Position numbers and translations under genes: made by a program. Of a DNA stretch of 64,000 bases, positions 30,929-42,042 are shown one piece after another. A model generated the notes under the pieces. The model made no database searches and was not told where the DNA came from. It was given only the letters and a program-made list of their open reading frames with translations. Location: NCBI RefSeq assembly GCF_900182635.1, contig NZ_FXTD01000006.1, forward strand, positions 1 through 64,000. Direction: 5' to 3'. The first letter of the stretch is position 1. The number at the start of each line of letters is the position of its first letter. The stretch is from Halorubrum cibi (GTDB lineage Archaea > Halobacteriota > Halobacteria > Halobacteriales > Haloferacaceae).

Positions 30929-32167
30929 ATGAGCAGGAACTACGAGTCGCTTCACGACCCGAACGCGGAGTACACGATGCGGGAGCTCTCCGCCGAGACG
31001 ATGGACGCAACCCGCTCGCGCGGCGGCGGTCGCGACCTCGAGATCACGGACGTTCAGACGACGATGGTCGACGGGAATTTCCCCTGGACGCTCGTGCGCG
31101 TCTACACCGACGCGGGCGTGGTCGGGACCGGCGAGGCGTACTGGGGCGCGGGCGTTCCCGAGCTGATCGAGCGGATGAAGCCGTTCGTCGTCGGGGAGAA
31201 CCCGCTCGACATCGACCGCCTCTACGAGCACCTGATCCAGAAGATGTCCGGCGAGGGGTCCGTCGAGGGCGTCACCGTCACGGCCATCTCCGGGATCGAG
31301 GTGGCGCTTCACGATCTCGCGGGTAAGGTCCTCGAGGTGCCCGCCTACCAGCTGCTCGGCGGGAAGTACCGTGACCGGATGCGCGTCTACTGCGACTGCC
31401 ACACCGAGGAGGAGGCCGACCCCGAGGCGTGTGCCGACGAGGCCGAACGCGTCGTCGACGAGCTCGGTTACGACGCGCTCAAGTTCGACCTCGACGTTCC
31501 GTCGGGGCTCGAGAAGGACCGCGCGAACCGCCACCTCCGTCCCGGGGAGATCCGCCACAAGGCGGAGATCGTCGAGAAGGTCACGGAGCGCGTGAAGGAC
31601 GAGGCCGACGTCTCCTTCGACTGTCACTGGACGTTCTCGGGCGGCTCCGCGAAGCGGCTGGCGGACGCCATCGAGGAGTACGACGTCTGGTGGCTCGAGG
31701 ACCCCGTGCCGCCGGAGAACCTGGAGGTCCAGGAGGAGGTAACGAAGAACACGACCACGCCGATCGCGGTGGGCGAGAACCGCTACCGCGTCACCGAGCT
31801 CCGCCGGCTCATCGAGAACCAGGCGGTCGACATCGTCGCGCCGGACCTGCCGAAGGTCGGCGGGATGCGCGAGACGCGGAAGATCGCGGACGTGGCGAAC
31901 CAGTACTACGTGCCGGTCGCGATGCACAACGTCGCCTCGCCGGTCGCGACGATGGCGGCCGCCCACGTCGGCGCGTCCATCCCGAACTCGCTCGCCGTCG
32001 AGTACCACTCCTACGAGCTCGGCTGGTGGAGCGACCTAGTCGAGGAGGACGTCATCGAGGACGGCTACATCGAGGTGCCCGAGGAGCCGGGCCTCGGCGT
32101 CACGCTGGACATGGACGCCGTCGAGGCGCACATGGTCGAGGGCGAGGAGTTGTTCGATCCGGCGTAG
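30929..32167 (+). CDS. sugar-acid dehydratase, enolase (MR/MLE) superfamily
   Basis: A 412-residue mandelate racemase/muconate-lactonizing-type enzyme. N-terminal capping domain to about 130. Barrel motifs in order: LKFDLDVP, FDCHWTF (metal Asp), WWLEDPVPPEN (metal Glu), AVGENRYR (metal Glu), and AMHNVASPV (catalytic His). The N-terminus (HDPNAEYTMRELSAETM) is the type I recall in haloarchaeal gluconate/xylonate dehydratases of the semi-phosphorylated Entner-Doudoroff or xylose pathway. Gluconate or xylonate is the likely substrate. No kinase or aldolase partner is adjacent. Its 3' end abuts the hairpin array. Confidence 0.85.
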   Translation: MSRNYESLHDPNAEYTMRELSAETMDATRSRGGGRDLEITDVQTTMVDGNFPWTLVRVYTDAGVVGTGEAYWGAGVPELIERMKPFVVGENPLDIDRLYEHLIQKMSGEGSVEGVTVTAISGIEVALHDLAGKVLEVPAYQLLGGKYRDRMRVYCDCHTEEEADPEACADEAERVVDELGYDALKFDLDVPSGLEKDRANRHLRPGEIRHKAEIVEKVTERVKDEADVSFDCHWTFSGGSAKRLADAIEEYDVWWLEDPVPPENLEVQEEVTKNTTTPIAVGENRYRVTELRRLIENQAVDIVAPDLPKVGGMRETRKIADVANQYYVPVAMHNVASPVATMAAAHVGASIPNSLAVEYHSYELGWWSDLVEEDVIEDGYIEVPEEPGLGVTLDMDAVEAHMVEGEELFDPA

Positions 32168-32440
32168 CCGGATCGGGCTCGATAGACGAGCGGAGCGAGT
32201 CTATCGGTGTTCGACGAAGCGTAGCTTCGTCGTGCTCGGAAATCTCCGATTTCCGGTGTTTGACGAGGCGTAAGCCGAAGTCAAGCTCGCCTGACGGAGT
32301 CAGGCGGTGTTCGACTGAGCGAAGCGAAGTCGAGCCAGCAGCGCGGAGCGCTGCGTCGTTCGACGAAGCGTAGCTTCGTCGTGCTCGGGAATCTCCGATT
32401 TCCGGTGTTCGACGAGGCGTAAGCCGGAGTCGAGACCGTC
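32168..32440. repeat. dense array of about ten short hairpins between convergent genes
   Basis: The entire gap between the convergent dehydratase and PHP genes consists of short inverted repeats, mostly with GTA, GGA or TCC loops. Examples: arms CGACGAAGC at 32212-32220/32224-32232 (copied at 32361-32369/32373-32381); 8-bp arms at 32237-32244/32248-32255; CGCCTGAC at 32288-32295/32299-32306; GCAGCGC at 32338-32344/32348-32354; GATAGAC at 32181-32187/32199-32205. A 75-bp block (32211-32285) recurs at 32360-32434 with four differences. It resembles bacterial REP/BIME clusters in position and form. Likely bidirectional terminator or mRNA 3'-end stabiliser; unproven. Confidence 0.9.
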
Positions 32441-33214
32441 TCACCGAGCGTCGATCTCGACCGGCTCGAGCCCGCGATCGTCGAGTTCCTCGCGGATCCC
32501 GGCCGCCCGTGGGTCGATCGCGTCCGGCTCGTGGCTATCAGTCCCGACGGTCACGCCCACCCCGTGATCGACGAGCGCGTCGAGGAACGCCGGCGCGGGA
32601 TGGAACTCGCCGTACTCGTCGAGCAGCCGACCCGCGTTGATCTCCGGGACCGTCCGGGATCGCTCGAAGGCGGCCGCGACCCGCTCGTAGTGCTCCGCCG
32701 TCGCGAACCCGCGCAGGTGGGGGTTCCGCTCGATCAGGTCGGGGTGTGCCGCGATCGCGAACAGCTCGGCGTCGACCAGCGCGACCAGCTTCTCGAAGTA
32801 GCGGTCGACGAGGTTGCGGCGCTCCGCCTCCGAGCACTCGGCGAAGTACGACCGCGCGTGGACGTTGACGCCCTCGAGGTTGTGGACGCTCCCGATCGCG
32901 TAGTCGAACTCCGCCTCCTCGAGGAACGTACAGATGGCGTCCTCGTAGTCGGGGTGGTAGTCCATCTCGACGGCGTCGAAGACGAGGATCCCGGCGCGGT
33001 CGCGGGCGACGTCGATCGCCTCCCGGCGACGCTCGTAGGTCGCGTCGAGGTTGAACCCGAGCAGCCGTTTCCGTCGACGTGCGCCCTCCTCGGGGATCAC
33101 GGAACAGTGGTCGGCGATCCCGATCCCGTCCAGCCCGGCGGTCTCCGCCGCCGAGACCATCGCCTCGAGGAACGACCCGTCCGAGTACGTCGAGTGGACG
33201 TGGTAGTCGTACAT
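32441..33214 (-). CDS. PHP-domain metallophosphoesterase
   Basis: A 257-residue PHP protein with the metal ligands of the family: DYHVHSTYSDG (HxH), GIADHCSV, VEMDYHPDY, GSVHNLEG, IAAHPDLI and GTDSHEPD. Size and motif order match histidinol-phosphatase-like PHP hydrolases, so histidinol phosphatase or a related sugar-phosphate/nucleotide phosphatase is plausible. ATG at 33214 starts with MYDYHVHS; upstream reads are non-coding. Convergent with the dehydratase and divergent from the acetamidase. Confidence 0.88.
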   Translation of the reverse strand: MYDYHVHSTYSDGSFLEAMVSAAETAGLDGIGIADHCSVIPEEGARRRKRLLGFNLDATYERRREAIDVARDRAGILVFDAVEMDYHPDYEDAICTFLEEAEFDYAIGSVHNLEGVNVHARSYFAECSEAERRNLVDRYFEKLVALVDAELFAIAAHPDLIERNPHLRGFATAEHYERVAAAFERSRTVPEINAGRLLDEYGEFHPAPAFLDALVDHGVGVTVGTDSHEPDAIDPRAAGIREELDDRGLEPVEIDAR

Positions 33215-33331: not shown

Positions 33332-34354
33332 ATGACACGCACGGACGGCGGCGACCGCGGGAGCGACGGCGCACGAACCGATGGCGGAAGCGAGAAACGC
33401 GAGTACACGATCGACCACCACCTCTCGGACGCCGAGGAGAACGTCCACCGGGTCTGGGACAACTCGCTGGACCCGATCCTGACGGTCTCCGACGGCGACG
33501 TGGTCCGGTTCGAGTGCCGCGACGCGGTCGACCGCCAGCTCGACACGGAGTCGACCGCCGAGGACTTCGCGAACGTGAGCTTCGATCCGGTCCACCCCCT
33601 CACGGGTCCCGTCGCCGTCGAGGGCGCGGAGCCGGGCGACACCATCCAGGTCGACCTCCTCGACTTCCAACACAAGGGATGGGGGTACACTGGCTTCATG
33701 CCGGGCGAGATGGGTCTCGGACTGCTCCCCGAGGACTTCCCCGACGCCGACGTCCACGTCTGGGACCTCCAGGGCGACGTGGGCCACTTCGTGAACGGCA
33801 TCGAGGTGCCGCTCGACCCCTTCCCGGGCGTCATCGGCCTCGCCCCGGGCGAGGACGGCGAGCACGACACGCTCCCGCCGCGCTCGGTCGGCGGGAACAT
33901 GGACGTGAAACACATGACCGCGGGGTCGACGGTGTACCTCCCGGTCGAGGTCGCCGGCGGGCTCTTCTCGACGGCGGACTGTCACGCCGCGCAGGGCGAC
34001 GGCGAGGTGTGCGTCACCGGCGTCGAGGCTCCGATGTTCGTCACCGCGCGCTTCACGCTCAGAGAGGACATGTCGATCGAGCAGCCGCAGTTCGAGACGA
34101 GCGGGCCGTTCACGCCCACCGGTCGCGACGAGCCGATGTACGGCACGACCGGGATCGCGGACGACCTGATGGAGGCGACGAAGAAGGCGACCCGCCACAT
34201 GATCGACCACCTCGCCGAGAACCGGGGGCTCACGCGCGGGGAGGCGTACATCCTCTGCTCGGCCGCGATGGACCTGAAGGTGAGCGAGGTCGTCGACGCG
34301 CCCAACTGGACCGTCTCGGCGTACATCCCCGAGAGCATCTTCCCCGAGGAGTAG
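33332..34354 (+). CDS. acetamidase/formamidase family protein
   Basis: A 340-residue protein of the FmdA/AmdA family, which hydrolyses short-chain amides to ammonia and acids. After an acidic N-terminus it shows SLDPILTVSDGDVVRFECRD-type opening, GPVAVEGAEPGDTIQV, GYTGFMPGEMGL, the conserved RSVGGNMDVKHM, and the Cys/His region STADCHAAQGDGEVC. A TATA-like cgattttaac at about 33296-33305 lies 27-36 bases before the ATG. Nitrogen scavenging is the known role. Confidence 0.9.
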   Translation: MTRTDGGDRGSDGARTDGGSEKREYTIDHHLSDAEENVHRVWDNSLDPILTVSDGDVVRFECRDAVDRQLDTESTAEDFANVSFDPVHPLTGPVAVEGAEPGDTIQVDLLDFQHKGWGYTGFMPGEMGLGLLPEDFPDADVHVWDLQGDVGHFVNGIEVPLDPFPGVIGLAPGEDGEHDTLPPRSVGGNMDVKHMTAGSTVYLPVEVAGGLFSTADCHAAQGDGEVCVTGVEAPMFVTARFTLREDMSIEQPQFETSGPFTPTGRDEPMYGTTGIADDLMEATKKATRHMIDHLAENRGLTRGEAYILCSAAMDLKVSEVVDAPNWTVSAYIPESIFPEE

Positions 34355-41759: not shown

Positions 41760-41862
41760 GTCAGTACAGCCTAAGCAACGAGCGATGGCGGTGGCGTCGC
41801 CGGCGCAAAGCGCCGGCTGCCAGAGGCGCTCTGCGCCTCTGGCAGCCGGACGTAGTCCGGCG
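41760..41862. repeat. overlapping mutually exclusive hairpins
   Basis: Three perfect inverted repeats overlap. GCCGGCGC (41800-41807) pairs with 41811-41818 around AAA. CCGGCTGCCAGAGGCGC (41814-41830) pairs with 41834-41850 around TCT, 17 bp without mismatch. GCCGGAC (41846-41852) pairs with 41856-41862 around GTA. Neighbouring arms share bases, so forming the central stem excludes the outer two. No gene is present. Confidence 0.85.
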
Positions 41863-41899
41863 ACGAGGCTGGGGAGGCGTGAGGTGCGGTGCTGTGCTG

Positions 41900-42042
41900 T
41901 CGGGTGGGACTCAAAGGGGCAGCCGCGAGGGCGAAGCTCACCGACGTAAGCACTGGAAAGAGCGAGCAACGCGAGCGACTGAAGCGCGCAGCGAGGTGCG
42001 CGAGTCCTCGCGGCTGGGGCTTTGGCGGTGTTCACCGCTCCA
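41900..42042 (+). ncRNA. candidate structured RNA/repeat element
   Basis: A 140-nt non-coding block closed by a long imperfect stem. CAAAG (41913-41917) and AGCCGCGAGG (41922-41931) pair with CCTCGCGGCT (42007-42016) and CTTTG (42021-42025), separated by a symmetric GGGGC/GGGG internal loop. Inside is a CGCGCA/TGCGCG hairpin at about 41985-42003. Directly after is a tight hairpin GCGGTG-TT-CACCGC (42026-42039). I recall similar tgggactcaaagggg-type sequences between genes of other haloarchaea, so this is probably a dispersed element. Strand and transcription are unknown. Confidence 0.5.

Follow-up and report, generated by a model that had tools for sequence, protein, structure and literature searches.

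A tandem array of alternating hairpins at the 3' end of an enolase-superfamily gene in haloarchaea

What fills the 273 bp between two genes at 32168-32440 of a Halorubrum cibi contig, and to which of its neighbors does it belong? The window, that is, the whole stretch of 64,000 nucleotides that was analyzed, comes from a genome assembly of 35 contigs and 3.18 Mb in total, whose close relatives are Halorubrum species. A preliminary description of the window had seen in this gap about ten hairpins of a common layout, likened them to REP/BIME elements, associated them with convergent gene pairs, and proposed a role as bidirectional terminator or 3'-end stabilizer. The two flanking genes are convergent, as described:

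30929-32167, + strand: anchor gene, encoding a 412-aa enolase-superfamily protein (mandelate racemase / muconate lactonizing type)
32441-33214, - strand: PHP-domain gene (Pfam PHP; start codon inferred)

The anchor protein matches Pfam MR_MLE_N and MR_MLE_C, ends in ...EELFDPA-stop, and has 2qq6 as its closest solved structure. It scores under the cut-off of all NCBIfam equivalogs, and no substrate can be assigned from them. The enzyme is about 90% identical across haloarchaeal genera, an unusually high conservation for a dehydratase-like protein. A formamidase-like FmdA_AmdA gene lies nearby (33332-34354), and similar proteins seem to lie downstream of the anchor gene in other genera too. A functional link between the two may be worth testing.

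The following hairpins were identified at the locus, where R1 is a covariance model of the repeated unit:

32155-32175, + strand: hairpin A1, CGATCCGGC-GTA-GCCGGATCG, overlapping the anchor gene end; R1 match 32152-32208, 41 bits, covering A1 and B1
32180-32206, + strand: hairpin B1, CGATAGACGAGC-GGA-GCGAGTCTATCG; within the same R1 match
32212-32232, + strand: hairpin A2, CGACGAAGC-GTA-GCTTCGTCG; R1 match 32209-32260, 74 bits
32237-32255, + strand: hairpin B2, CGGAAATC-TCC-GATTTCCG; R1 match 32209-32260
32260-32284, + strand: hairpin A3, TTGACGAGGC-GTAA-GCCGAAGTCAA, containing the T32261-A32283 pair; R1 match 32258-32311, 38 bits
32288-32306, + strand: hairpin B3, CGCCTGAC-GGA-GTCAGGCG; R1 match 32258-32311
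32311-32333, + strand: hairpin A4, TCGACTGAGC-GAA-GCGAAGTCGA, tail type FD-stop; R1 match 32309-32360, 65 bits
32338-32354, + strand: hairpin B4, GCAGCGC-GGA-GCGCTGC; R1 match 32309-32360
32361-32381, + strand: hairpin A5, same sequence as A2; R1 match 32358-32409, 73 bits
32386-32404, + strand: hairpin B5, CGGGAATC-TCC-GATTTCCG; R1 match 32358-32409
32410-32432, + strand: terminal hairpin A6, CGACGAGGC-GTAA-GCCGGAGTCG, containing the C32410-G32432 pair

The array itself was correctly recognized, with a count of eleven rather than about ten, because the first A hairpin begins within the anchor gene and carries the TAG stop codon (32165-32167) in its loop and stem. Arms do vary while layout and loops are kept; the hairpins are not uniform, as six of type A alternate with five of type B in units of about 50 bp (49-58 bp). 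Each unit runs from a GTTYGAY box through an A hairpin, an RGC(T/C) spacer and a B hairpin to the next GTT box. A hairpins have the box at their start and RTCGAGC, or a close variant, at their end, and B hairpins lie between a (T/C)CG- or CAGC-type spacer and the following box. In the window, the two recurrent spacers between hairpins are of the GGTGTT and AGCTCG types. The gap folds strongly as RNA on the + strand (-145.5 kcal/mol, z = -7.2, 0 of 200 shuffles) and less so on the - strand (-119.4 kcal/mol, z = -5.3). A search of 31500-33000 with the Rfam 15 covariance models returned nothing up to E = 1. A second, dispersed haloarchaeal hairpin repeat (GTCGCCGG..., CTGCCAGAGGCGC..., then GAGGCTGGGGAGGCGTGAGG and GACTCAAAGGGGCAG) occupies 41795-42020 of the same window.

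The array is internally repetitive: 32209-32299 and 32358-32448 are 90% identical, and within them the 75-bp block at 32211-32285 recurs at 32360-32434 with exactly four differences, as first reported. T32261/A32283 and C32410/G32432 are opposite bases of one stem in each copy, and the change from A32240 to G32389 turns an A-T into a G-T pair. Taken from the window alone, such a compensatory pair is weak evidence of conserved structure; the comparison across genomes given below makes it strong.

We searched other haloarchaea with the covariance model, as the preliminary description had proposed, and arrays were found there. H. cibi itself has no second array by either BLAST or R1, the next best match scoring 16.8 bits (E 0.4). 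Within the genus, 48 of 52 genomes have BLAST matches, and the 29 best Halorubrum loci all start at the stop codon of the anchor orthologue or of a 77% paralogue. Across the order, R1 matches 144 of 293 genomes and 50 of 87 genera, while the anchor gene is present in 246 of the 293. We checked 49 high-scoring loci, namely the 29 best order-wide and 20 clusters picked because their genomes had them as a second or additional site. Every one of the 49 is located at the 3' end of the anchor gene or of a paralogue, with identities of 55-99%. At 80 named loci, all matches of at least 30 bits are on the strand of the anchor gene. Four of five plasmid matches are annotated at the same enzyme family, and the fifth, in Halomicrobium urmianum, falls between two other operon genes. 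Since all checked loci are at its 3' end, arrays are tied to the upstream gene and not to convergent pairs: the downstream gene differs among species, the PHP-domain gene is not conserved behind arrays elsewhere, and the Halomicrobium array has operon neighbors rather than convergent genes. At least one third of the orthologues are followed by no hairpin or by just one or two, and so the array is not essential.

Some of these sites deserve separate mention. The H. urmianum array (plasmid NZ_CP084092.1, L165, 3893-4150) lies between co-directional genes for a 4Fe-4S protein and an ethylbenzene dehydrogenase-related protein, and in its A units stop and start codons overlap (GAATGA, TGATG), which gives them the look of copies of the gene junction. 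In Haladaptatus litoreus (L130, 4510-4562) a second A-B unit ends an unrelated upstream ORF (...LVFDGA-stop), whose stop codon is within the hairpin. In 18 genomes that were searched more deeply, weaker matches (at most 42 bits) occur away from the anchor gene at other gene ends, before tRNA genes and inside ORFs. Hairpin strings related to the dispersed repeat at 41795-42020 of the window, such as GTCACCGGGCGGAGCCCGGTTGCCCGAGGGACTCCGTCCCTCGCTGCT, apparently lie inside ORFs of several Halorubrum genomes (L145-L152; L176-L193). At one tRNA-Phe gene (L156, G031:C5:8855-11893, 1208-1562) the 3' end, GTTCAAATCGGGGAGGCGGCAT, recurs twice more with a spacing of 134-141 bp, and hairpins and an anticodon-arm fragment lie between the copies, a tRNA version of the gene-end-plus-hairpins pattern. 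Two further tRNA genes (L282, G136:C1; L284, G209:C11) have an A-B hairpin pair directly on their 5' side, and their first bases, GCCGGTGT, are duplicated on its far side, as if a unit had been inserted into the tRNA 5' end. The weaker relatives within ORFs and before tRNA genes look like mobile or recombining DNA. Halorubrum matches of about 30-36 bits proved to be another palindromic repeat family, partly within ORFs, and were left out of the counts.

The units from other genomes allowed us to follow the stems through many sequence changes. An alignment of 24 units is conserved in the box, the GC spacer and the C-G pair that closes the loop, and most stem positions change in pairs; the arms of B hairpins are exchanged freely, with four to five pair types at B positions. 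Sixty-three distinct units from other genera, independent of model building, show 184 two-sided changes compared to 49 +/- 7 in shuffles (0 of 500), with 93% of cells pairing, although aligning these units to the model biases the result towards structure. Their covariation is 0.433, as opposed to 0.171 when shuffled (0 of 500) and to a maximum of 0.106 when the arms are slid. The same picture emerges from the model-building set itself, an ungapped MAFFT alignment (81 compared to 23 +/- 4). Two outer pairs hardly vary (the second position is U-G in 56 of the 63 units), and we regard them as sequence conservation, not as proven pairs. Pairing is thus kept while sequence changes, and this is seen across dozens of genera. 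Complementarity without structural selection could also be a mutational by-product, if template switching or palindrome correction copied one arm onto the other. The nearly perfect Watson-Crick pairing of the stems, in which G-U intermediates are scarce, and pairs that change on both sides at once would fit such copying. It predicts neither the conserved spacers nor the order-wide tie to one gene family, nor the sense-strand biases and in-frame tails described below, and we consider it quite improbable.

Among 173 distinct hairpins from contiguous arrays, oriented with the gene, we counted 28 G-U compared to 7 A-C combinations (P = 0.0005, an optimistic value because the hairpins are related and the strand biases are not fully independent). 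Mismatches of the G-A/A-G type, often in tandem, number 63 and those of the C-T/T-C type 8; GNA triloops number 57 compared to 19 on the other strand, and 145 of the 173 loops are closed by C-G. The G-U, G-A and loop preferences all indicate the sense strand. This conclusion rests on the restriction to contiguous array hairpins, as 350-bp downstream stretches, diluted by chance hairpins in coding DNA, gave a G-U to A-C ratio of 81 to 79. G-U pairs make up about 2% of the pairs counted, which is below expectation for an RNA helix drifting through G-U intermediates.

These signals bear directly on the proposed bidirectional terminator between convergent genes. Both genes do converge at the H. 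cibi locus, and a single hairpin elsewhere, in Haloferax volcanii, brought about termination of 59% of transcripts in a reporter (PMC7237163). Nevertheless, arrays stay in place where the downstream gene changes or is co-directional, and the folding evidence points to one strand. A search of 31900-32700 gave no terminator-like site, and no T run in the gap exceeds 3, whereas H. volcanii mostly uses a T stretch to terminate transcription between genes (PMC7237163). We therefore regard a bidirectional terminator as highly unlikely. The other half of the original proposal, a 3'-end element that would act on the mRNA of the upstream gene, remains plausible.

A further link between array and gene is found in the reading frame. 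Read from the box in the frame of the gene, anchor genes end in FDEA-stop, FDPA-stop, FD-stop or FDEE-stop, and the later A units often encode the same kind of tail: 156 of 208 have an in-frame stop within six codons, compared to 41 and 10 in the other frames. The share of units with an in-frame tail declines outward, from 1.00 in the first to 0.84 in inner and 0.61 in last units (inner versus last, P = 0.0003). In the window the series is FDPA-stop, then FDEA-stop, FDEA-stop, FD-stop, FDEA-stop and FDEA-stop. Since tail types mix within an array, later units are not plain copies of the first unit of the same array.

Units also turn over rapidly. The anchor gene of H. aquaticum is 97.9% identical in DNA to that of the window, which has two more units; one is gene-proximal and changes the protein tail from LFDEA to LFDPA, and the other is internal. 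Within a group of species sharing one downstream context, zero to two units are found between identical flanks. The extra proximal unit and the gradient of decay would be consistent with polar addition of units next to the gene, and internal duplication is seen as well. When 27 Halorubrum loci are compared pairwise, a shared gene is found 0.5-2 kb upstream of the anchor gene in 85% of pairs (51% and 41% further out), but just downstream of the array in only 24%. The array marks a synteny break. In Halorubrum yunnanense (G051, L175), an insert of about 6.4 kb carrying stress-type genes (Usp, CNNM/CBS, M48 peptidase, DUF4112) splits the array, and the right-hand remnant begins exactly at a GTTCGA box.

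These observations could mean that boxes and hairpins form a recombination or insertion target at the level of DNA (REP-, MITE- or integron-like) at the gene 3' end, where incoming units or larger DNA would bring a replacement gene tail and push the old one downstream. The variable downstream and conserved upstream context, the genes inserted in H. yunnanense, the outward loss of in-frame tails, the proximal gain relative to H. aquaticum and the tRNA loci elsewhere with duplicated ends flanking similar hairpins are all in its favor. Yet no tyrosine recombinase (PF00589) was found within about 70 kb of the anchor gene in 12 genomes, and Y1 transposase (PF01797) is absent from the H. cibi genome and three other array-bearing genomes (G001, G014, G028). 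The 6.4-kb insert has no recognizable recombinase, and phage records have no match to the array. Four matches of GTTYGACGARGCGTARGC to viral contigs were dismissed as unrelated, since these contigs have a lower GC content (49-62%) and no array context. Moreover, last units may lack stops through truncation, and mobility alone leaves the single-strand bias and the gene specificity unexplained. We consider this DNA-level explanation possible, on the doubtful side. A more specific version, in which units are added gene-proximally through the GTTCGA box, each with a new C-terminal tail and stop, and the old tails shift downstream and decay, seems unlikely to us. If true, such a conveyor would be an integron-like haloarchaeal system of DNA rearrangement without a locally encoded recombinase.

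We give about an even chance to the reading that the hairpins are a cis-acting element in the 3' UTR of the enolase-superfamily gene, formed on the sense strand, with units that turn over by recombination at GTTCGA boxes. Arguments for such an element are the bias towards the sense strand, a first hairpin that contains the stop codon, and the association with a single gene. Counting against it are the orthologues with few or no hairpins, the scarcity of G-U pairs and the weaker relatives at other sites. The last codons of the gene and its stop codon (LFDEA-stop, LFDPA-stop or LFD-stop) make up the loop and the 5' half of the first A hairpin, and later A hairpins are spare copies of gene ends. 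The array would be co-transcribed with the anchor gene, and its tandem hairpins may stop or stall 3'-to-5' decay of the anchor mRNA, or set its 3' end. Haloarchaea do not have an exosome, and their RecJ3/4-aRNase J complex has 3'-5' exonuclease activity (PMC10470531); tandem stable hairpins at a 3' end would be expected to slow such an enzyme. The missing T stretch makes intrinsic termination less likely than protection or stalling. Units would be gained, lost and swapped between strains through recombination at the boxes, which would be harmless because any A unit that comes to adjoin the gene gives it back an FD(E/P)A-stop tail.

Among known systems, arrays of integron attC or other attachment sites resemble ours in their tandem folded sites, a GTT-containing box at the gene end, foreign DNA inside the array and the greater degradation of distal units. 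The integron box consensus is GTTRRRY, which the array box GTTCGAY does not fit, and unlike integrons the array has units of about 50 bp without ORFs and, as noted above, no integrase nearby. Tandem repeats of tRNA 3' ends are also known, for example the E. coli tyrT/rtT repeats. There too a gene 3' end is repeated in tandem behind the gene, whereas our array belongs to a protein gene and has a two-hairpin unit with covarying stems behind the same gene family order-wide. The bacterial REP/BIME families, GTAG- and CGTC-tagged (PMC3733652), share short tandem extragenic palindromes with two alternating spacers, and GTAG REPs often provide the stop codon of the adjoining ORF (PMC3733652), much like the A units. 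The assignment to REP/BIME nevertheless does not hold. The array is single-copy in the H. cibi genome, with no dispersed copies there, and tied to one gene family; its arms are free while box and spacers are conserved; no GTAG or CGTC tag was recognized; and the H. cibi genome has no Y1 (RAYT) transposase. The 3'-end or terminator hairpins of H. volcanii (PMC7237163), not a named family, likewise lie in haloarchaeal 3' regions; unlike them, the array has no T stretch, and the accessible text of that source describes no tandem gene-tail array. The literature that we searched, which did not extend to subscription journals, contained no earlier description of the array, and RepRanger (PMC12306157) mentions no Halo- name.

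The array would thus be a previously unnoticed, fast-evolving element at a fixed address across haloarchaea. Palindromic arrays of prokaryotes usually consist of a conserved palindrome dispersed genome-wide; here the location is constant while the palindromes vary freely, and half of them are spare copies of the end of the neighboring gene. Is this an archaeal 3'-UTR hairpin array that controls the decay of mRNA in exosome-free cells? What preserves the palindromes despite sequence change, and why do chromosomes rearrange right behind the anchor gene? With one address in about half of the sampled haloarchaeal genomes, these questions can be tested in culturable strains.
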